DNA of 37,269 nt, from positions 1 to 37,269 of the forward strand of contig CAIJNQ010000052.1 of the NCBI GenBank assembly GCA_903822015.1, read 5' to 3'. The notes beneath the pieces are model-generated. The model was given only the letters and a program-made list of their open reading frames with translations. It had not been told where the DNA came from and made no database searches. Below, piece by piece: positions 16,567 to 27,065 of this stretch (positions are counted from its first letter, which is position 1; each line of letters starts with the position of its first letter). The position numbers and the translations under genes were made by a program. Source of the DNA: an uncultured Verrucomicrobia subdivision 3 bacterium. Its GTDB lineage: Bacteria; Verrucomicrobiota; Verrucomicrobiia; Limisphaerales; UBA11358.

Positions 16567-17655
16567 TCAAAGTTGCGTCATCGCCTTGTCCAGCGCGGCG
16601 TAAAGCTGGTTCATCGTGGCTTCCGTTTCGTCGCCCATGTTGGAAAGGCGGAACGTGGTGCCCTTGATCTTTCCGTAGCCGCCGTCGATCAGGAAACCCT
16701 GATCCTTGACGAGTTTCTGCAGCTTCGCCACGTCCACCGTGCGGCCGCCGGGGCGTGCGCCGTTGCTGACGCAGGTGAGCGTGACGGATTCAAAACCCTT
16801 TTCGGGAAACAAATTGAAACCGTGCTTGGCCGCCCAGTCCCGCGTGAGCTGGTTGGTTTTCTGGTGGCGGGCATAACGGTTCTCCAAACCTTCGGCAAAG
16901 AAATCATCGAGCTTGGACGACAGCGCGTAAACGTGGCCGATGCTCGGCGTGCTGGGCGTCATGCTTTGTTCGGCATTCTTCTGGAATTCAACAAAATCGA
17001 AATAATAGCCCCGGTCCCTAGCCGTCGCAGCCTTCGCCAATGCGGCCGGTGAAGCGGCGAACACCGCAAGTCCCGGCGGCAACGCAAACGCTTTCTGGGT
17101 GCCGGCGAGCAGCACATCAATCCCCAGTTCGTCAAACTTGATCGGCAGCGCGGTCAGGGAGCTGACGGCGTCCACGATGAACATCACGTCCGGATATTTT
17201 TTCTTGAGGGCGGCGATCTCCGCCAACGGCGACATCACGCCGGTCGAGGTTTCGTTGTGAATCAGTGTCAGCGCATCGAATTCGCCCGTGGCGAGTTTTT
17301 TATCCACCGCCTCGGCGCGAATCGGGGAACCCCAGTCCACTTGAAGCGCCTCGGCCGGCTTGCCGCATTTTTTGGAGACATCAAACCATTTGTCCGAAAA
17401 CGCGCCACACATGCAGTTCAGGACTTTTTTCTGAACCAGGTTCCGGATTGCGCCTTCCATCACGCCCCACGCGGACGACGTGGACAAATAAACGAGCTGC
17501 CTGGTGTAAAGCAGTTGCTGGAGCTGCGGTTGGATTTTCGCGTAAAGGTCTTTGAACCCCTGACCGCGATGACCAATCATCGGAGAGCAAAACGCCTTGA
17601 AGGTCTTTTCGCTGACTTCGACCGGTCCCGGAATGTGCAGTTTGACGTGTGCCAT
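16567..17655 (-). CDS. Class V PLP-dependent aminotransferase (alanine-glyoxylate / serine-pyruvate type)
   Basis: The 362-residue protein is a fold type I, class V aminotransferase. It starts HIPGPVEVSEKTFKAF with a Gly-Pro-x-x-Val motif usual in this group, has an MIGHRGQGF substrate-loop block, LIHNETSTGVMSPL, and VDAVSSLTALPI with the PLP-pyridine Asp162. The Schiff-base Lys188 lies in AGTQKAFALPPGL. Relatives transfer amino groups between alanine or serine and glyoxylate or pyruvate. Some act as phosphoserine aminotransferases in organisms without classical SerC, so serine synthesis is a real alternative. The C-terminal GTTFRLSNMGDETE is typical. A perfect TGTGA-N6-TCACA palindrome sits just before the start codon, and an intrinsic terminator follows, so it is probably a single-gene transcript under its own regulator. 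Confidence 0.85.
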   Translation of the reverse strand: MAHVKLHIPGPVEVSEKTFKAFCSPMIGHRGQGFKDLYAKIQPQLQQLLYTRQLVYLSTSSAWGVMEGAIRNLVQKKVLNCMCGAFSDKWFDVSKKCGKPAEALQVDWGSPIRAEAVDKKLATGEFDALTLIHNETSTGVMSPLAEIAALKKKYPDVMFIVDAVSSLTALPIKFDELGIDVLLAGTQKAFALPPGLAVFAASPAALAKAATARDRGYYFDFVEFQKNAEQSMTPSTPSIGHVYALSSKLDDFFAEGLENRYARHQKTNQLTRDWAAKHGFNLFPEKGFESVTLTCVSNGARPGGRTVDVAKLQKLVKDQGFLIDGGYGKIKGTTFRLSNMGDETEATMNQLYAALDKAMTQL

Positions 17656-17736: not shown

Positions 17737-19020
17737 TTAAAACCGCACACCAAATCCAACGGTCAGGTAATAATCGCTGTTCTGCGGCACCTCGCCGCCG
17801 GATTTCGCCTCGGGATTCTGGAGATAATCCCAGATGAAAGACACATCGAGATTAAGATGCCGTTTGATTTCGAACTCCAGCGTGGTCACCGCGTGGTGGG
17901 TATAGGCTCCGGATTTTTCATCCGTAAACGTGCTTTGCCAGTTTTGGATGAAGGTGAGACGTTTCGTGATGTCCTGTTTGAAATTTGAATTGAAAACGCC
18001 CGCCGGCGTGGTTGCGGTATCGGATTGGCCCGGTTCGACGGTGGCAAATCGCGTCAATTGATAGCCCGGGCCGGCTGAGACCGTCCACTCCAGACCGGTG
18101 CGGTCAAAAATATAGTAGCCCGCGCTCACGCCGTCGGTGAGGCGATACGAGATGTTGGCCAGCGAATCGTGATAATATTCAAACTGAACCGGCCGCACGA
18201 ACCAGTCATGGTTAAGGCGAACATCAAAGGAGATGTTGACGCGATCATTGTTTGCACTTTGGACATTGTTGACCTGGCTGTAATTCCCGAGGTAATCAAA
18301 GAGCAGCGTGGTGCTGGGCGTGCGGCGCGCCAGTTCCGCGCTGGTGGTGACCGTGGTCTGTTCGTTGTTGCCGGACTGGAGGTTCATGCCCAGGCTGAAG
18401 TCCCCCGACCAGTTGCGCAATCCGGTTTGTCCGCCGCCGTGTGTGATACCGATGAGGTCGTCACGGGATCGATTGACGGGCGGCTGTGCGTCAACCGTCA
18501 CGACGTCGTTGCTGATGACCACCTTGCCATAGAGCGGCAATCCGTAATCAAACCGGGTGAACATCCGGTGAGCCGTATAAAGATTGCGAACGTCCTTCAA
18601 CTTCAACGTCTGCTGCTCCAGTTCGTCGCTGTCAAATTCCACTTCCTTGTTTTGAATATACTTGATTAGGCCCCGCAGCCATTCGCCCGACTTGAGCTGG
18701 ACCCAGTCGGCACCGTCCGTCCCGACACCGGGCGGCTTCCAGGAAATGGCGTTGGTCGACATGTTGGTGGTGACAATTGAAGCAGATGCCAGGTTGGTTG
18801 CCTGAAGCCCCGGTGTGCGATTGAGGTCGCTGATTTTTTCCTGGGGAAAAACCAGCCGGCCGGCCATTTCCGACTCAAACACCACATTGGAACTGGTTTC
18901 CGCAATCACCGTGCCGATAAACCGCTCGCCATTTGTACTGACCAGCGTGTCAGCCCTTGCCAGCAGGGTCACCGCTCCCAAAATGAGGGCGCCCCAGATT
19001 TTTTTTAAATCATCGCGCAT
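17737..19020 (-). CDS. DUF481 outer-membrane beta-barrel with N-terminal small beta domain
   Basis: The 427-residue product has a signal peptide (about 1-23, ending LLARA). A small N-terminal domain (about 24-70) shows the pattern LVSTNGERFIGTVIAE...NVVFESEMAGRLVFPQE. A linker and a second similar beta segment follow (GEWLRGLIKYIQNKEVEFD, about 130-170). The C-terminal part (about 205-427) is a DUF481/YdiY-like barrel with alternating hydrophobic strands: TGLRNWSGDFSLGMNLQSGNNEQT, LTFIQNWQSTFTDEKSG, then LTVGFGVRF ending in Phe as outer-membrane barrels do. Its ATG lies one nt after the kinase stop, making it the last gene of the envelope operon. Function of DUF481 proteins is not well established. 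Confidence 0.85.
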   Translation of the reverse strand: MRDDLKKIWGALILGAVTLLARADTLVSTNGERFIGTVIAETSSNVVFESEMAGRLVFPQEKISDLNRTPGLQATNLASASIVTTNMSTNAISWKPPGVGTDGADWVQLKSGEWLRGLIKYIQNKEVEFDSDELEQQTLKLKDVRNLYTAHRMFTRFDYGLPLYGKVVISNDVVTVDAQPPVNRSRDDLIGITHGGGQTGLRNWSGDFSLGMNLQSGNNEQTTVTTSAELARRTPSTTLLFDYLGNYSQVNNVQSANNDRVNISFDVRLNHDWFVRPVQFEYYHDSLANISYRLTDGVSAGYYIFDRTGLEWTVSAGPGYQLTRFATVEPGQSDTATTPAGVFNSNFKQDITKRLTFIQNWQSTFTDEKSGAYTHHAVTTLEFEIKRHLNLDVSFIWDYLQNPEAKSGGEVPQNSDYYLTVGFGVRF

Positions 19021-19021
19021 C

Positions 19022-21142
19022 TTATTTGGCCGTCATCACGAGCGTTTTGTCAGATTGCGCCGCCGCCAGCCGGCCCCACCATTCCTCGGCCCGTTCGCGC
19101 GTCCAGTCCATCGCGCCGGTACATTTCATCAATGCGTTGGCCAGTTCCCGGGCACTGGCCGGACGCTCGCCGGGTTTTTTGGCAAGGCAACGCATCAGGA
19201 GATTTTCCAATTCGGCCGAAACGGGCTTGCCCCGGCGTTCAGACGGTTTCGCCGGCAGATGTTTCACCTGATGCATCAGCACTTCGCCCAGGGTGGCGCA
19301 GTCGAATAACGGGTGGCCGGTTACAAGAAAATAGCCGACAGCGCCCAGTGAATAGATATCGGCCGCCGCATCCACTTTATCGGGATGCTCCACCGCCTCG
19401 GGCGACATGTATAGCGGCGTACCCAGTGTGGTGTTGGCGCCGGTCAACTCCAACTGCCCGGCCGCCGCCCGGGCTTTCACCAGGCCGAAGTCGAGCACTT
19501 TCACGAAATCCGGCAGGCCGCCGCGCCGCGTCAGGAAGACGTTTGCCGGCTTGATGTCGCGGTGAACCAACCCGATGCCGTGCGCCTCGGCCAGTGAGCC
19601 GCACATCTGGCAAAGAATGGAGATCACCCGGCACTCGGGCTGAGGGCCGTAATTTTTCACCAGCCTGTCGAGCGTCAGGCCTTCGAGATATTCCATGGCG
19701 TAATAAAAAATCCCCTCCGGCGTGCGGCCGTAATCGAAAAGCGCGATGGTATTCGGGTGCGTCAACTGGCTGGTCATCTGCACCTCCTGCTCAAAGCGCG
19801 CCAGGGTGTTGGGGTCGGCGGTCTCCGACTCCAGCAGTTTCAAGGCAACCGGCCGCCGCATCAGCGCATGGTGGGCGCGATAGACCGAGCCGAACGCTCC
19901 CGCACCGATCTTGTCATCGAGGGCATATTGGCCGAGTTGTTTCGCCTGTAACGCCGCCTTGCGGGCCGAGGCTTGCAAACGATTGGCCAGGCGCATTAAA
20001 AAATAAATTGCCACCGAACCGGCAACCAGTAATCCAAAGATGAACCAGAAACCCACGCGCATGATGTGCAGCGGACGAAACGCCTCGGCCACGTCCATCT
20101 CCGTGACCAGACCAAAATCAAATTCGGGGAACCATTGCCACGCGCCGACCACCGGCACGCCACGATAATCCCGGTAGCCGTCCACATTAAACCCGGCGTG
20201 ACCGGCGCCGGCTTCCGTCACCGGCAGGGTCAATGGCTGTTCGGCAGGCCGCTTGGGTGATGATTTACCCTGGCTTAAATTCACCAGCGGGTCGCGGATT
20301 TGAAAAGCGAGAGTTGAATATGAATCTTCGGTGTCGGGAATAAAACCCAGCCGCCGCAGTTCATCGTCAAAACGGCTCTGGGAGAGCAACTGCCCGTTGC
20401 GCGAGAATGCGTAGGTCTCGCCGCTTTCGCCGGCGCGCGCCGTCGCCAGGATGCGGGCGAAATCTTTTTCCGGCGTGATGCGCAAGCCGAGCACCGCGAT
20501 GATCTTACCGTCCGCCGACCTGACCGGCGCAGCCGCGAACATGGTGGGCACTCCGGCACGCAACTTGCCTTTCGCATCCAATAGCATCGCCAAACTGGGA
20601 AAAGGCTTCGTGACGAGGGCCCGACCGGCAAGGCAATTGGAAAATTGCTCCGCGTAGCCGGGCGGCGAAACCATGCCGACCAGTTGATCGCGCCGGGAAG
20701 CCATGACCAGACAGTTGGTGTCCAGCACGACAAACCCGGCGTATCCTCGCCGGTCGAGCCAGGGATTCAAATGTGAGCGCATCGCCGCTAGTTCTGGCGC
20801 GGCCAGCAGTTGCGCCGTAACGGGCGTTCCCGGGGCGGTCTTCGGCAACAACCCAACGACCAGGGCGCGCAGCGGTTCTTCATCCGCCAGATTTTCCGCA
20901 TCGGATTTCACGGTAGCCGACCAGGCGCGCAACGCCTCCGCGTTGGCGTTGAGGATGACCTGAAGATTGGAGGCAATCTGTTGCTTCATGGCGCTCTCCA
21001 TTTTTAGGCGCAACGTCACCGCCACGAACGCCAGCAGCACCGCCGCCACCAGCGGCCAAACCCACAATTGCGTGCGAAGAAATCCCTGGGTGCGCGCCAG
21101 ATAGCTGGAGGATCGCGACTTGGATTGCTGGTTGAGACTCAT
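19022..21142 (-). CDS. Membrane Ser/Thr protein kinase with N-terminal Cache-like sensor domain
   Basis: The 706-residue product has a first helix at about residues 27-43. A periplasmic region of about 310 residues (45-360) has the marks of a dCache sensor: GESGETYAFSRNGQLLSQS near 238-256, and YRGVPVVGAWQWFPEFDFGLVTEMD near 326-350. A second helix lies at about 364-384, and a C-terminal cytoplasmic Hanks-type kinase follows. All key kinase residues are present: glycine loop IGAGAFGSV (412-420), Lys435 in VALK, catalytic HRDIKPAN with Asp529, metal-binding DFG (551-553) and GTPLYMSPE (574-582). It should therefore be active. The order sensor-then-kinase is the reverse of PknB. The gene starts 5 nt after the hydrolase gene stop. 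The ligand is unknown. Confidence 0.92.
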   Translation of the reverse strand: MSLNQQSKSRSSSYLARTQGFLRTQLWVWPLVAAVLLAFVAVTLRLKMESAMKQQIASNLQVILNANAEALRAWSATVKSDAENLADEEPLRALVVGLLPKTAPGTPVTAQLLAAPELAAMRSHLNPWLDRRGYAGFVVLDTNCLVMASRRDQLVGMVSPPGYAEQFSNCLAGRALVTKPFPSLAMLLDAKGKLRAGVPTMFAAAPVRSADGKIIAVLGLRITPEKDFARILATARAGESGETYAFSRNGQLLSQSRFDDELRRLGFIPDTEDSYSTLAFQIRDPLVNLSQGKSSPKRPAEQPLTLPVTEAGAGHAGFNVDGYRDYRGVPVVGAWQWFPEFDFGLVTEMDVAEAFRPLHIMRVGFWFIFGLLVAGSVAIYFLMRLANRLQASARKAALQAKQLGQYALDDKIGAGAFGSVYRAHHALMRRPVALKLLESETADPNTLARFEQEVQMTSQLTHPNTIALFDYGRTPEGIFYYAMEYLEGLTLDRLVKNYGPQPECRVISILCQMCGSLAEAHGIGLVHRDIKPANVFLTRRGGLPDFVKVLDFGLVKARAAAGQLELTGANTTLGTPLYMSPEAVEHPDKVDAAADIYSLGAVGYFLVTGHPLFDCATLGEVLMHQVKHLPAKPSERRGKPVSAELENLLMRCLAKKPGERPASARELANALMKCTGAMDWTRERAEEWWGRLAAAQSDKTLVMTAK

Positions 21143-21147
21143 CGAAT

Positions 21148-23019
21148 TTACGGTTGAGTGGCCGATTTCCCGGTGTTCGCATCGTTCAAATTTTCGAGCA
21201 GGATGCGGCGAACTTCTTCAATCGTCAGCGGATTACCCTGGCAGGAATGGCCGCTGCGCACGATGAATTCCGACTCCGCATAATCCACGTGGGCGCTGTT
21301 ATATTTCACGACGCCATCGGCGCCTTGGGGTGGCCGGTCATTGCCTTTGATGGCGATGATGGAATTACATTTGATGCCGGGGGCGACCGGAATCTCCGCC
21401 AGCGTGAGCATGAACGGGTTGTCCGTCGCCATGCCATTGAGGCTCGTCGGCACGCCCTGGCGCAACGACGGCGGGAGATCCAACGTGTCATTTAATTTCA
21501 TCAGGTTGGCGGAGGCTTCCATCAGGTCGCTGGGCAGCGTGATGAACCGATTCAGGAGATTCTGGACAAAAGAAGTGTTCTGGTAGCTGCCCCGGTGGGG
21601 CGTGGAGATGAAAATCACACGCGAAACGCACGGCAGCGGCTTGAAGAAAAAATTGGCCCGCAACAGTTCGCGGGTCGGCACATCAATGTTCAGTTCGTCC
21701 AGATTGGTCTTGGAAACGAGCTGCCAGAGTTTGTCACCGGTATCCGTCGCCGTCAGCTTGGCCAGCAGGCCGCCTTGGCTGTGGCCAATGACCACCATGT
21801 GCCGCAACGCCTCGTCCCTGCCGTCCGGATCGAGCGTCTTGACGTTGTTCATCAGGTCGTTGCGCAAGATCCCCGCCGACATCGTGATTGGTTTCCCGCT
21901 GGCATAATTGAACATCCAAAACTGGTAGCGCTTGCGCAGCACGGGATCGGCGTTCAGCGTGTTCCACATTTCCGCCCACCAGACCGGGCTGCTGGCGGTG
22001 CCATGCACAAACACCACCGGAATCTGGCCGGGCGTATACGGCTCCATGCGCCGGATGCCGGTCTTGTTTTGAAGCTCCGCGGAAAAGAACTGGGCCAGCC
22101 CAAGCTTCCAAACGGGGCTGTTGTTCAACCACTGGGCGAGTGGAGCGGTGGTGTCGGTCTGCAGCGGCACCTGCTTGCCATTGACTTCAACGTGGCTGGT
22201 GTCGAATGCGGAATAGAGTTCAAGCGTGGCGGTCAATTTACCTGCGCTCCAGTCACGCACGCCCCCCGACACGCGGAGGAAAACCGTGGCGGGCGCGCGC
22301 ACCGATTCCTTGAATTTGCCGAATTTGTCCGTGACCGCGATCAGCGGCGCACCCAGGCCGGAATCACGGTTGCGCGTGGAGAGGCCGCGCACGGCAAATT
22401 CATCGGCGGAATAATACGCCTTGATCAAATCCAGATTCCACGGAAATCCCGGCTGGGTGAATTGCACCTCCACCACGCCGGGTGGCGTCTGGCGAGGCCC
22501 GCTGGCCAGTTCGACCAGCGCGTTGGTATTAACCATCAATCCCTGGGCGAGACCGCGATTGTACAGGTCCCCGGCCGCGCGAAAGCGGATATCGAATGGA
22601 TTCGGGTGGCCTTCGGTGCTCTCGCCCAGCAGGTAGAGATACGCATATATGGCCGAGGCAAAATAGCTGTCTCGGGCCTGCTTGGGCACCCCCGGCTTGA
22701 CGCATCGGCTCTGACGCTCCGCATTCCAGTAGTTCAATTCACTCAGGGCGTAGACCACGTCCCGCCGTTCGTCGGTGCAGGCAATCGCTTGAAGTTTTTC
22801 CAGCGTGGCGTCAGGATTCTTTTTGAACGCCGTTTCGAGCCCATACCGGTTCAGCACCCTCCTGGCATCCGCGCTGAACTGACCGCTGGTGAGCGCGTTC
22901 TCATGCAGGTTCTGGTAGGCCTGCCGGGGCGACACCTTGTCCGCGCCGATCGGCGTCGTGCAACCGGCCATCACCAGCAACGCGGCGAGCGCGAATCCAT
23001 TCTGCAGGTGTCGTTTCAT
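21148..23019 (-). CDS. Alpha/beta-hydrolase lipoprotein (lipase/PGAP1-like)
   Basis: The 623-residue product has a lipoprotein signal peptide with lipobox MAGC (lipidated Cys20). A helical N-terminal domain (about 28-165) and a beta-rich middle region (about 180-300) precede a C-terminal alpha/beta-hydrolase domain (about 325-610). In that domain VVFVHGTASSPVWW forms the oxyanion region and Ser414 in VIGHSQGGLL is the nucleophile. VIFISTPHRGS is typical of lipase/PGAP1 relatives. Asp568 (ADGVV) and His591 (RSGHSCQGNP) are the likely remaining triad members. An ester or amide in a lipid or lipoprotein is a reasonable substrate, but this is inferred. AAGGAAG 5 nt upstream of the ATG at 23019 is a good ribosome-binding site; it overlaps the end region of the DUF4105 gene. 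Confidence 0.88.
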   Translation of the reverse strand: MKRHLQNGFALAALLVMAGCTTPIGADKVSPRQAYQNLHENALTSGQFSADARRVLNRYGLETAFKKNPDATLEKLQAIACTDERRDVVYALSELNYWNAERQSRCVKPGVPKQARDSYFASAIYAYLYLLGESTEGHPNPFDIRFRAAGDLYNRGLAQGLMVNTNALVELASGPRQTPPGVVEVQFTQPGFPWNLDLIKAYYSADEFAVRGLSTRNRDSGLGAPLIAVTDKFGKFKESVRAPATVFLRVSGGVRDWSAGKLTATLELYSAFDTSHVEVNGKQVPLQTDTTAPLAQWLNNSPVWKLGLAQFFSAELQNKTGIRRMEPYTPGQIPVVFVHGTASSPVWWAEMWNTLNADPVLRKRYQFWMFNYASGKPITMSAGILRNDLMNNVKTLDPDGRDEALRHMVVIGHSQGGLLAKLTATDTGDKLWQLVSKTNLDELNIDVPTRELLRANFFFKPLPCVSRVIFISTPHRGSYQNTSFVQNLLNRFITLPSDLMEASANLMKLNDTLDLPPSLRQGVPTSLNGMATDNPFMLTLAEIPVAPGIKCNSIIAIKGNDRPPQGADGVVKYNSAHVDYAESEFIVRSGHSCQGNPLTIEEVRRILLENLNDANTGKSATQP

Positions 23020-23029
23020 ATGCTTCCTT

Positions 23030-24046
23030 TTAATGTGCCGCCGGCGGTGCTTCCTCGAAACCGGGCAATCCTTTCCGGATCTGCTGCGAAAAATCCGCTG
23101 CCTGATTTGCCGCTTTGGCGCGCGAATTGATATTGGACAATTTTTTCAGTTCCGCAAACGGCAAGTTGGTCGCCAGCGTACCGCGTTCGTAGAGGAGTTC
23201 GTCGAGGTGGCCGTTGAGCAGCATGCGCCAGTCCCACGGCGCCCGATCGGACGCATCGCGTTGGGTACGGATGGCAATCGTACAATTATCCGTAAGCGCG
23301 TTATACCATTCCGCGTGTTCGTGCAATTCATTGGCCCGGCGCAGATAATCAAGGAACAGCTTCCTCCCCTGCGCCGGGGTCACTTGCAAACGATAGAGGC
23401 AAACCTCTTCGCCCTGGCGATAATTCGTGCGCAGCCGCACCACGTCCCGTTCATCGGCGATGATATAAGTCAGCTCATACTGTCGAAAAAAACCCCGGAG
23501 CGCGGAATAGTCCTCGCCCTTCTCCTTGCGCGTCTCGATGGAGAAACAGACGTAATCCCCGTTGGTGAAACCGAAGCTGATCATGGTGTGGGCGATGTCG
23601 GGCGAACCCCAGGTGACCAGATATAGATCAACCGTGCGTAAGGCATCCAGGTCGTAAGCCCGGTTATAATAGTGCACGTCGAAGTCCGTTTCAGTGCGAT
23701 AATCACAATTGCGGACATTGTGTATGCTGATTTGGTTGCCATTGATGTCCGCGAACGGCAGCTCTACCAGATCCGGTTGCCAGTCGCGGTGGTTGGAAGG
23801 CTGCAACGAAAACCACCAGGCAAGAATGATCAAGAAGCCGGCGGCGGTGACCACCCTTTTCCAGGGACGCCGCACGAAAACCCATAACGCCAGGATTCCC
23901 AGCCCATAAATTGCCGCCAGCGGAATTCGCAGCCAGGAAATTCTTACATCGAAGTAAAGCGCCGCCACCGCCCATAGCGTCGCCAGTCCCAGCGCCAGCC
24001 AGATTAAGATGACCAGGGATAAGCGGAGAAGTTTGATCAGTTTCAT
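23030..24046 (-). CDS. DUF4105 (Lnb N-terminal-like) membrane protein
   Basis: The 338-residue product has three N-terminal helices (about 6-30, 38-58, 66-82) and then a periplasmic DUF4105 domain. The domain contains His153 in SPDIAHTMISFGF and Cys255 in ALTDNCTIAIR, the conserved pair of this papain-like (NlpC/P60-related) group. In Gram-positive bacteria the DUF4105-related protein Lnb moves an acyl chain within lipoproteins to give lyso-lipoproteins; many other DUF4105 proteins are uncharacterised. The intact His and Cys suggest an active acyltransferase or hydrolase. It ends 10 nt before the alpha/beta-hydrolase lipoprotein gene, and 59 nt separate it from the secreted protein gene upstream. 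Its role in a Gram-negative envelope is open. Confidence 0.85.
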   Translation of the reverse strand: MKLIKLLRLSLVILIWLALGLATLWAVAALYFDVRISWLRIPLAAIYGLGILALWVFVRRPWKRVVTAAGFLIILAWWFSLQPSNHRDWQPDLVELPFADINGNQISIHNVRNCDYRTETDFDVHYYNRAYDLDALRTVDLYLVTWGSPDIAHTMISFGFTNGDYVCFSIETRKEKGEDYSALRGFFRQYELTYIIADERDVVRLRTNYRQGEEVCLYRLQVTPAQGRKLFLDYLRRANELHEHAEWYNALTDNCTIAIRTQRDASDRAPWDWRMLLNGHLDELLYERGTLATNLPFAELKKLSNINSRAKAANQAADFSQQIRKGLPGFEEAPPAAH

Positions 24047-24105
24047 CGAGCTGGTTGCGGCCGCTTTAATCGTAGTTACCGGTTCCGTTATTGGAAACTT
24101 GCGGG

Positions 24106-25101
24106 CTATCGCCGATGGGCGCCGTAGGTTCCCGCCGAGCGGTCATAAGTCCGTGGATAAACCATGCCCGGGTTGTTCGCCACGGCGGTCGCCGCGTCGG
24201 GATGTGTGTCGGCCATTTCCGCCGCCGTCCAGCCATAAGCCGGCGGGTAGGATCCGTAAGTGATCACCTGACCCGCTTGAGGAGCCGCCGTCGTTGTCGG
24301 AGCGTTGGTGTCAATAATGATGATGGTGTTGGTGGCTCCCGCAACGGGCTGGGCCGCGGCCGTTCGGGGTTGCGCGAGGGCGAGCAATTCCGCGTCCGAT
24401 GCCCGCGCGCTGGCAAGCGCGGCTGGATCATAAACCGACACCCACCAGCCGCCCATCGCCCCCCTCTCGCCCGGCAGGAGCGTTTCAACCGTCAATCCAT
24501 TTTGGGTTTGCACATCCCTCTGGCTCCAGCTCAAGGCGCGTACCATCTTTCGGGCATCAGGCCTTGCGAGCAAGGAACACATAAAGTTGACGCAGTTGGT
24601 TTTGGCCGCTGCGTTGTTTTGCAGATCCTTCATCGCACCGATTTGGACGGCTGCCGGCTGGTTCAAATCGCCGTAGATGTTGATTTCGTAGCCGCCATAG
24701 GCACACCGGAAGGAAATATAGGGAACATTTTTTAAATTCCCGGAACCGATTACCGGAGCCGGAACCTGTTTGATTTCCGGTGCAAAACCACTATCCGCCA
24801 GCAAGGTGACAATCTGCGCCCAGTCGGGAATCGTCTGCCCGTTGTTGGAAACATGCGGCATGGTGGCCGGTTCCTTTTTCACGTCCTTGATCCACGCGGC
24901 GGGATAACGGTAGGTGCCGAATTCGGTTTGCATGAGCACGCCGTTGCCATCCTGTTGCAAAACCTTGCCCGCAACCACCGCACCGCTTTGCAGGAGAAGC
25001 ACATCCGCTTTGACCAAATCGGGGGATCCCCATGCCAGGCTGAAGACCGCCAGCAGACCCAGGACTTGGGTCCAGTTCACAAATCGTTCATTGGTTTTCA
25101 T
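24106..25101 (-). CDS. Secreted protein with small N-terminal beta domain, function unknown
   Basis: The 331-residue product has a signal peptide (about 1-33, ending LVKA). A small N-terminal beta domain (about 34-78) reads VLLLQSGAVVAGKVLQQ...GVLMQTEFGTYRYPAAWI and resembles the start of the DUF481 protein at the other end of the operon. The central region (90-250) contains two conserved-looking Cys in FRCAYGGYEINIYG and TNCVNFMCSLLA, and VSVYDPAALASARASDAEL. The C-terminus (260-331) is Ala/Thr/Pro/Tyr-rich and low in complexity. I do not recognise the central domain. It is the first gene of the five-gene envelope operon, with a good promoter close upstream. Confidence 0.7.
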   Translation of the reverse strand: MKTNERFVNWTQVLGLLAVFSLAWGSPDLVKADVLLLQSGAVVAGKVLQQDGNGVLMQTEFGTYRYPAAWIKDVKKEPATMPHVSNNGQTIPDWAQIVTLLADSGFAPEIKQVPAPVIGSGNLKNVPYISFRCAYGGYEINIYGDLNQPAAVQIGAMKDLQNNAAAKTNCVNFMCSLLARPDARKMVRALSWSQRDVQTQNGLTVETLLPGERGAMGGWWVSVYDPAALASARASDAELLALAQPRTAAAQPVAGATNTIIIIDTNAPTTTAAPQAGQVITYGSYPPAYGWTAAEMADTHPDAATAVANNPGMVYPRTYDRSAGTYGAHRR

Positions 25102-25240: not shown

Positions 25241-25283
25241 GTTTAAAAGCAAAACGCCCGTCGTTTGCTTCACGACGGGCGTT
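25241..25283 (-). terminator. Intrinsic terminator after the DUF2959-like lipoprotein gene
   Basis: On the minus strand AACGCCCGTCG pairs perfectly with CGACGGGCGTT across a nine-nt loop (25253-25283), followed by TTGCTTTT. It lies 38 nt past the stop at 25322 and separates this gene from the five-gene envelope operon. Confidence 0.85.
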
Positions 25284-25321: not shown

Positions 25322-25984
25322 TTATTTCTGTTCAGTACTCGGCAACACCGGCGATAACGCCGTGCTGAGGCTGCTGAAGCTCCCCTGCAATTGCTTGATG
25401 GAGTCGCGCAGAGGCACGGCATCCACCTTGGTCTTGGAAACAATGTCCTTGATGGTGCTCAAACCGGCGGCGGTCAAATCCGTGCCGAGATAAGTCTGAA
25501 TATCCTTCAAGTCCGAGGTAAACGGCTTGAAGGAGATTTTAACGCCTTGATAACTGGTTTCCACGTCATTCAGCTTGGCGGTGACTTGATTCATGCGATC
25601 CGAACTGCGCTGGCGGAGTTCGGGGCTTTGAATGGCCGACAATTGATTGCTCCAGCTTTCAGCATAAACCGCCGCAGCGGAGCGCATCTGAACGACCTTG
25701 GTGTCCAGGTTTTGGGTCGCCTGATCCAGATTCTTGGTGGCGGAAACAAACGCATCATACTGGTTGCGCAAATCACCCTGCGACCTGAAAGTCAAATTGT
25801 TCAACGCGGCGAGCACGTCGTTGACCCGGGAGGAGGTCTGGGCGACCGCATCGGCCGAGTTCTGCAATGCCGAAGCCGTGGCGGAACCTTTGTCGTAGCT
25901 CTTGGAAATGCAGCCTGCCGCCGCCGCCAGCGCCGCCGCCAACGCGAGATTGATGGAAACGATTTTTATTGATGATGTTTTCAT
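25322..25984 (-). CDS. DUF2959-like coiled-coil lipoprotein
   Basis: The 220-residue product has a lipoprotein signal peptide (AAALAAAAGC, lipidated Cys24). The mature part is almost wholly helical with heptad-like spacing: SALQNSADAVAQTSSRVNDV, ATKNLDQATQNLDTKVVQM, SWSNQLSAIQSPELRQRSSD, FKPFTSDLKDIQTYLGTDL. Size, order and the 'sW..eL..i..p.LR..S' segment agree with what I remember of DUF2959 proteins, which have no assigned function. The ATG at 25984 is chosen over a TTG ten codons upstream. A strong terminator follows, so it is probably transcribed alone. Confidence 0.75.
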   Translation of the reverse strand: MKTSSIKIVSINLALAAALAAAAGCISKSYDKGSATASALQNSADAVAQTSSRVNDVLAALNNLTFRSQGDLRNQYDAFVSATKNLDQATQNLDTKVVQMRSAAAVYAESWSNQLSAIQSPELRQRSSDRMNQVTAKLNDVETSYQGVKISFKPFTSDLKDIQTYLGTDLTAAGLSTIKDIVSKTKVDAVPLRDSIKQLQGSFSSLSTALSPVLPSTEQK

Positions 25985-26063
25985 AATTAAATTGATAGTA
26001 CTTATGTTATGCAAATTGAGTCAAGGCAAACTGACCTTGCCGGGGGGATTCAAGCTCCGGGTT

Positions 26064-27065
26064 TCAAAAACGGAAGGTCACGTCGGCGCCGTAGGACCAG
26101 CCATTGAAACTGCTGCCCCACATATATGACACGCCGACGCCGATCCATTGCACTTTCCACAACTGATCCAGAAAATCCAGCACGATACGGCCATGCGCTT
26201 CGTTGATATAATCCGACTGCAATCCCTGTTGAATACCATCATAAAGCTCCTGCCGGCTGAAGAACCCCCCCGAGCGCAGTTCATGTCCCCACAATTCCAC
26301 GCCCAGCGGTATATCGACGTCAAATTTGTTTTCCCAGACCCAGGAGTCGCCATTCACGCTCACGTTCGCCGAGGAACTGCTGAAGCTTTCCGTATGAAAG
26401 TAGGTGGGTTCCGAGGATAACGTGAAGATCGTGCGATGCCAGGTGTATTGGTATTGCAGGTTCAGGGAGGGCCGGATCGTCCAGGTATTCGCGTTCCAGT
26501 CGATAAGTCCGAGTTGCTGGGCCTGAGCCTGGTTGTTTTTTGCAAAGGTACTGTTCGCGGTGTAGCTCTGTTCGGTATGTCCATACATGCCCATGAAGGT
26601 CGGGGCGATGCTGAAGTTGTTGTTGAACCAGAACCGCGCCCCACCGCCGAACTGAATCGCGAAGGTTTTGAATTCGCTCGTGTCACCATTCAAATCCCCC
26701 GATTGAAAATTATTCTTGGCCGTAAGGTAACCCATGCTGCCTTGCACCTGCGGCTGCCAGCCGATATCCAAGGTGCCAAGCTGTTGCGGCGCGCCGACGA
26801 CCCCCATGCCGCCGAACTTGCTGATGTTGATATTTACATTTTTATTATTGTCGTTGACGTTGTTGTAGGCGCCGCCGCTTACGCCGTAATCGCCGCCCAG
26901 AATGGTGGCCGCCTCGATCCGGCTGCCGACCACGTTTTTAAACTCGTTGATTTGATCCTGCGTCAGTTGCGCATGTCCCGGTGAAACCAACAGCATTCCG
27001 CCGGCAAATCCGGCGGTAACGCCCGAATAAAAATTGAAACGAACAGAACGCGATTGAATTTTCAT
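26064..27065 (-). CDS. Outer-membrane beta-barrel protein (autotransporter-barrel-like), function unknown
   Basis: The 333-residue product has a signal peptide (about 1-32, ending PGHA) and a short helical start (QLTQDQINEFKNVVGSRIEA). Strands with alternating aromatic and small residues follow: LDIGWQPQVQGSMGYLTA, FAIQFGGGARFWFNNNFSIAP, TWTIRPSLNLQYQYTWHR, WVWENKFDVDIPLGVELWG and WIGVGVSYMWG. It ends VTFRF with a C-terminal Phe, the usual signal for barrel insertion. A stretch of Asn (NVNDNNKNVNINIS) lies near residue 70. It resembles solitary autotransporter-type barrels without a passenger, but this is not certain. The Shine-Dalgarno-like AGGAGG lies about 40 nt upstream, too far to serve the ATG directly. 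Confidence 0.75.
   Translation of the reverse strand: MKIQSRSVRFNFYSGVTAGFAGGMLLVSPGHAQLTQDQINEFKNVVGSRIEAATILGGDYGVSGGAYNNVNDNNKNVNINISKFGGMGVVGAPQQLGTLDIGWQPQVQGSMGYLTAKNNFQSGDLNGDTSEFKTFAIQFGGGARFWFNNNFSIAPTFMGMYGHTEQSYTANSTFAKNNQAQAQQLGLIDWNANTWTIRPSLNLQYQYTWHRTIFTLSSEPTYFHTESFSSSSANVSVNGDSWVWENKFDVDIPLGVELWGHELRSGGFFSRQELYDGIQQGLQSDYINEAHGRIVLDFLDQLWKVQWIGVGVSYMWGSSFNGWSYGADVTFRF

Follow-up and report, generated by a model that had tools for sequence, protein, structure and literature searches.

Two adjacent genes of the locus described here, B and C, encode a DUF4105 protein of the inner membrane and a lipase-like lipoprotein, and they recur as a pair in bacteria of several phyla. The pairing is well supported, and the chemistry is what we infer. 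Starting from the presence, the fold types, the invariant catalytic residues, the lipobox, and the finding that B and C are linked and co-occur, we give about an even chance to the two proteins constituting a two-enzyme periplasmic lipid module, which remodels acyl chains of the envelope and is joined within one genus by the products of genes D and E. The gene pair is apparently undescribed so far: no published description of a DUF4105-lipase pair was found, and the DUF4105 passages of PMC12994826 and PMC12345273 contain no lipase partner. The pair offers a route into unexplored envelope lipid remodelling of diderms, and since cultivated Desulfobacterota such as Desulfopila aestuarii carry it, the lipid chemistry is directly testable.

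The window analysed here is a stretch of 37,269 nt from an uncultured bacterium, whose genome (G000) is a 2.85 Mb draft with a completeness of 73%. The closest named relatives of this genome are assemblies from metagenomes that bear the labels Verrucomicrobia subdivision 3 and Limisphaerales. All five minus-strand open reading frames reported in the initial annotation were found in the window (Table 1), and the gaps of A/B, B/C, C/D, and D/E are 59, 10, 5, and 1 nt, respectively, as stated there. The terminator-like hairpin upstream of A probably represents the 5' border of the transcription unit, setting it apart from the gene upstream of A. A second hairpin lies beyond the aminotransferase gene downstream of E, and this gene may therefore be co-transcribed as a sixth gene.

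Table 1. Features of the window around genes A to E
Feature	Position	Strand	Description
Gene A	24106-25101	-	331 aa; secreted protein, family unassigned by Pfam; leads the apparent transcript
Gene B	23030-24046	-	338 aa; DUF4105/Lnb_N; three N-terminal TM helices; periplasmic domain, probably of the permuted NlpC/P60 type
Gene C	21148-23019	-	623 aa; lipase-like alpha/beta-hydrolase lipoprotein
Gene D	19022-21142	-	706 aa; transmembrane Ser/Thr kinase, probable periplasmic dCache sensor
Gene E	17737-19020	-	427 aa; DUF481 outer-membrane barrel with a small N-terminal domain
Terminator-like hairpin	25253-25283	-	12 pairs; upstream of A; consensus match only
Second terminator-like hairpin	16542-16509	-	beyond the aminotransferase gene; consensus match only
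Aminotransferase class V gene	16567-17655	-	81 nt downstream of E
DUF2959 and Omp_AT-like barrel genes	25322-27065		upstream of A

Domains and invariant residues of the B and C proteins

The B protein matched the Lnb_N/DUF4105 family of Pfam (PF13387) with an E-value of 3.9e-43 and 147 bits, and its hydropathy profile displayed three hydrophobic helices at the N-terminus. In the alignment with homologues from several phyla, His153 and Cys255 were invariant in all 29 sequences, as were Glu171, Asp198, and Asn254. The earlier description of B as an inner-membrane DUF4105 protein with intact His153 and Cys255 is thus borne out. The structural model of B (pLDDT 91) contains the three helices within residues 2-80 and a mixed domain from residue 98 onward. 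A Foldseek search of the PDB with this model gave no significant match, and no significant solved relative of B or C was found by sequence. The best PDB relative of the model was TseH (153 residues, rmsd 4.2), with a Z score of 7.4 that lies below the level safe for standing by itself. This match agrees with the HHpred result given in the DUF4105 passages of PMC12994826, which places the family with the permuted NlpC/P60 lipid enzymes. According to the same passages, relatives of DUF4105 act on acyl chains of phospholipids or lipoproteins; Tox-Act1 cleaves PG and PE, and LRAT transfers acyl groups. B probably resembles TseH, Tox-Act1, LRAT, and YiiX in the permuted NlpC/P60 fold and the Cys-His site, and acyl chemistry on phospholipids has been shown for Tox-Act1 and LRAT (PMC12994826, same passages). 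B differs from this group in residing in the membrane rather than being secreted as a toxin, and in having a conserved partner.

The alpha/beta-hydrolase match of C in Pfam was weak and below the cut-off. In the alignment, Cys20, Ser414, Asp568, and His591 were invariant in all 45 sequences, the latter three forming a putative catalytic triad in the order Ser-Asp-His. Cys20 is the lipobox cysteine, and the residue at position +2 was Ala, Ser, or Thr in 38 of the 45 sequences and Asp in none. The model of C (pLDDT 87) has a lipase domain at the C-terminus, preceded by a helical part at the N-terminus and a beta-rich part, and its best relatives were bacterial lipases (Z up to 18.5), with the Legionella phospholipase PlaB at Z 17.1. 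The assignment of C as an alpha/beta-hydrolase lipoprotein with Ser414, made in the initial annotation, agrees with all of these features. C is predicted from its fold and invariant residues to be a lipid-anchored lipase, and the residue after the lipobox cysteine, read by the E. coli rule, suggests that it probably sits in the outer membrane. The catalytic domain of C is like that of the family I lipases, which function with a membrane foldase (LipA/Lif; LipA:LipB, 9g8u), and in both cases the lipase gene stands beside that of a membrane-anchored partner. Unlike those lipases, however, C is a lipoprotein and has additional domains at its N-terminus, and B possesses invariant catalytic residues and is no foldase.

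In three loci of one family (L096, L098, and L099), C is extended at its C-terminus by about 430 residues that have no Pfam match, and short B was not detected there. These long proteins were considered as B-C fusions and set aside, the tail being unrelated; an apparently fused B in L149 turned out to be an artefact of overlapping frames.

A course of events can be proposed for the two-enzyme module, in which the substrates, the order of the steps, the membrane of C, and the roles of D and E are conjectural. B, held in the inner membrane by its three helices, would expose the Cys-His site of its permuted NlpC/P60 domain (LRAT/Lnb/TseH-like) to the periplasm. There, it would most likely take an acyl chain off a phospholipid, bind it as an acyl-cysteine intermediate, and hand it on to water or an acceptor. 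C, as a lipid-anchored Ser-Asp-His lipase most likely located in the outer membrane, would act on the acyl pool of B (a lysophospholipid or an acylated product), and B and then C would remodel the acyl chains of the envelope in sequence. Within the genus, the Cache-sensor Ser/Thr kinase D would plausibly sense the state, and the E barrel would be the outer-membrane end. A bolder generalisation, which we regard as speculative and somewhat doubtful, is that short DUF4105 proteins and lipoprotein lipases form a widespread, hitherto undescribed two-step acyl shuttle between the inner and the outer membrane of Gram-negatives, separate from Lnt/Lnb maturation and controlled by a kinase in some Verrucomicrobiota.

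Pairing of B and C across phyla

An alignment search with C found at least 64 loci, with identities of 41-84%, in Verrucomicrobiota, Desulfobacterota, Geobacter relatives, Methylococcales, and others. B-C or C-B pairs were present in Verrucomicrobiota, Desulfobacterota, Geobacter relatives, Lentisphaerae, and Kiritimatiellae; B adjoins C in most loci of Desulfobacterota and in many of Verrucomicrobiota and Lentisphaerae/Kiritimatiellae. The order was B-C in 33 loci and C-B in 18, counts that include the window and a few duplicates. When paired, the two genes were always co-directional and mostly less than 30 nt apart or overlapping. No adjacent B was observed in any of the Methylococcales C loci seen, and no D or E was seen next to the B-C pairs of the other phyla.

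Co-occurrence was examined in a sample of 289 genomes of the phylum, with short B defined as an open frame of up to 450 aa in the three-TM form. C was found in 95 genomes, short B in 75, and both in 67, of which 37 had the two genes adjacent and 30 did not. One genome (G150) first counted as having a long DUF4105 proved to have a short B in an overlapping frame; with this correction, C was present in 67 of the 76 short-B genomes and in none of the 17 with long DUF4105 (67/75 and 0/18 before correction). The co-occurrence of short B and C gave a Fisher p of 1e-33 with the 67/75 count. When genera were tallied, by labels assigned by hand, 27 had both, 9 C only, 5 B only, and 112 neither (odds ratio 67, p 2e-17); the corresponding numbers for families, likewise tallied by hand, were 9, 4, 3, and 46 (odds ratio 34.5, p 6e-6). 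Taken together, these statistics are corrected for common descent only in part. C stood without short B in 28 of its 95 genomes. The short B proteins aligned to the B model, nearly all over the full length. Most of the genomes are draft assemblies from metagenomes, and the cases of unlinked B and C include one genus of 22 sampled genomes, 2.2-3.5 Mb in size.

The further neighbours of B-C in other phyla were varied and included DUF3313, MetA-type and other barrels, Ysc84, and MscS. Outer-membrane barrels (MetA-type and OMP_b-brl) and DUF3313 lipoproteins were often among them (L033, L038, L047, L032, L042, L076, and others). A phosphatidylserine synthase gene follows C-B in L095 and L102, while in L101 B was not detected and the gene follows C; the three loci belong to one family. 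We did not retain this lipid-gene context as support, since PssA near C-B in three loci only is too few.

Lnt, Lnb, and the forms of DUF4105

The initial annotation had described Lnb as an enzyme of Gram-positive bacteria. This was wrong: it is in Bacteroides that Lnb serves as the lipoprotein N-acyltransferase (Armbruster et al. 2024, cited in PMC12345273 and PMC12994826), although the DUF4105 passages of PMC12994826 do note a Firmicutes branch of DUF4105. B and Lnb are alike in the Lnb_N domain, the conserved His and Cys, and the periplasmic domain on an inner-membrane anchor. What sets B apart is its size of about 340 residues, its three TM helices at the N-terminus, its presence alongside Lnt, and its lipase partner. 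Matches to Lnt were found in all 59 relatives (55 over the curated cut-off). Among 30 other C carriers, 29 had Lnt over the cut-off, as did 282 of the 289 phylum genomes. Because Lnt is present throughout, B is no stand-in for Lnt, and this candidate role was ruled out. The window genome has two Lnt matches, both over the curated cut-off (G000:C130 3838-5112 and G000:C262 502-1767).

The main rival to the two-enzyme module is that B modifies its partner lipoprotein. B would then be an Lnb-like acyltransferase dedicated to C, which re-acylates or trims the anchor of C and thereby sets the place of C or the timing of its activity. The Lnb_N domain of B and the invariant lipobox cysteine of its constant partner are consistent with such a role, as is the action of Lnb on lipoproteins described in the DUF4105 passages of PMC12994826. 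We nevertheless consider it unlikely that B is dedicated to C, because the complete Lnt of these genomes covers ordinary N-acylation and because C occurs in 28 genomes without a short B.

The function of DUF4105 has been newly assigned in Bacteroides, and automatic annotation would label every member of the family Lnb. Our results split DUF4105 into a short three-helix form, which occurs with Lnt and is tied to the lipase, and long forms that are not tied. The long DUF7843-Lnb_N-DUF7840 proteins of Verrucomicrobiota, an architecture taken from one long protein examined, have the Lnb_N domain in common with B but differ in their length of about 640 aa, in the flanking domains, and in never occurring with C.

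Gene order within the genus and the products of A, D, and E

Among 40 genomes of the genus, C was matched in six including the window, five times at full length and once (G028) over the C-terminal half. Orthologs of D and of E (>60% identity) were each found in five of the 40 genomes: G000, G001, G012, G030, and G031 for D, and G000, G001, G012, G018, and G034 for E. The search for B covered 36 of the genomes and found it in the window, G001, G012, and G034. Co-occurrence within the genus gave p values of 5e-5 for B/E, 2e-4 for B/C, and 4e-3 for B/D, which are uncorrected for descent and count all 40 genomes as searched for B. The genomes carrying B were scattered over an IMPDH tree, and a single origin by descent within the genus was accordingly left without support from this tree.

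The order A-B-C-D-E was found in the window. G012 has D-B-C, with E on another contig; G034 has a truncated E, B, an arylsulfatase gene, and C; and G001 has B-C on one contig, adjacent D-E on another, and A elsewhere. A fixed five-gene operon, as had been claimed, does not survive these reshuffled orders, nor the fact that A is unlinked in the sole relative having it. Proximity is kept while the order shifts, which argues that B, C, D, and E are functionally linked, with the adjacency of D and E based on four genomes; A is without such support. In G034, B is apparently split by a frameshift (L009, 9547-10547) and the neighbouring E is cut to its barrel half, through either decay or an assembly error.

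No Pfam family was found for A, and A and E both weakly matched the N-terminal domain of LA_0442/LA_0875. The only homologue of A among the genus genomes is that of G001, on a different contig, and A is probably outside the conserved module. D matched Pkinase (6.5e-46), retains the VALK, HRD527, and DFG551 motifs intact, and has TM helices near residues 26 and 365. D appears to be a transmembrane Ser/Thr kinase, and its proposed Cache-like sensor is probable, with a match below threshold (dCache_1, E-value 1.8e-7, but 31.4 bits against a curated cut-off of 45). The assignment of E as a DUF481 barrel was confirmed by Pfam (1.7e-31).

The seven genomes examined from a second family of the class belong to one genus, and in five of them a membrane kinase-fold gene comes after C, at a distance of 12 to about 500 nt, with one overlapping (L222, 1758-3500; L225, 4292-6070; L226, 4300-5973; L227, 1275-3116; L235, 1170-2807). 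These proteins have no HRD motif, carry an F5/8-type domain at the end, and are not orthologs of D. This arrangement hints at more than one origin of kinase-fold coupling, without proving it.

The kinase could also be at the centre of the locus, with D detecting an envelope or lipid signal and phosphorylating cytoplasmic targets, and B, C, and E as the output. The co-occurrence and adjacency of B, C, D, and E in shuffled orders, the intact motifs and probable Cache sensor of D, and the kinase-fold genes closely following C in the second family fit this possibility. We nonetheless judge such a sensing system to be improbable, in view of the absence of D and E from the B-C pairs in every other phylum and of the HRD-less proteins of the second family. 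It is similarly unlikely that the locus is a loose envelope neighbourhood, in which B and C are linked and the remaining genes are neighbours without a common function; the unlinked A of G001 and the varied neighbours of B-C in other phyla would suit it, but D and E recur by B-C or by each other in G001, G012, and G034 though both are rare in the genus.

The initial annotation had read all five genes as one functional system with lipid or lipoprotein chemistry, had called for a search for the co-occurrence of the five families, and had named a lack of conservation in relatives as grounds against the system. Conservation was observed: B-C is kept across phyla, and B, C, D, and E adjoin within the genus. 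To this extent the reading of a functional link with lipid or lipoprotein chemistry is supported, for B and C across phyla and for D and E within the genus; it is not supported for A, nor for D and E beyond the genus.

Upstream of A, the window contains genes for a DUF2959 protein and an Omp_AT-like barrel, relatives of which adjoin E in G018 and G012 (L179 and L182). A wider envelope gene set, including these two, may reassort together.
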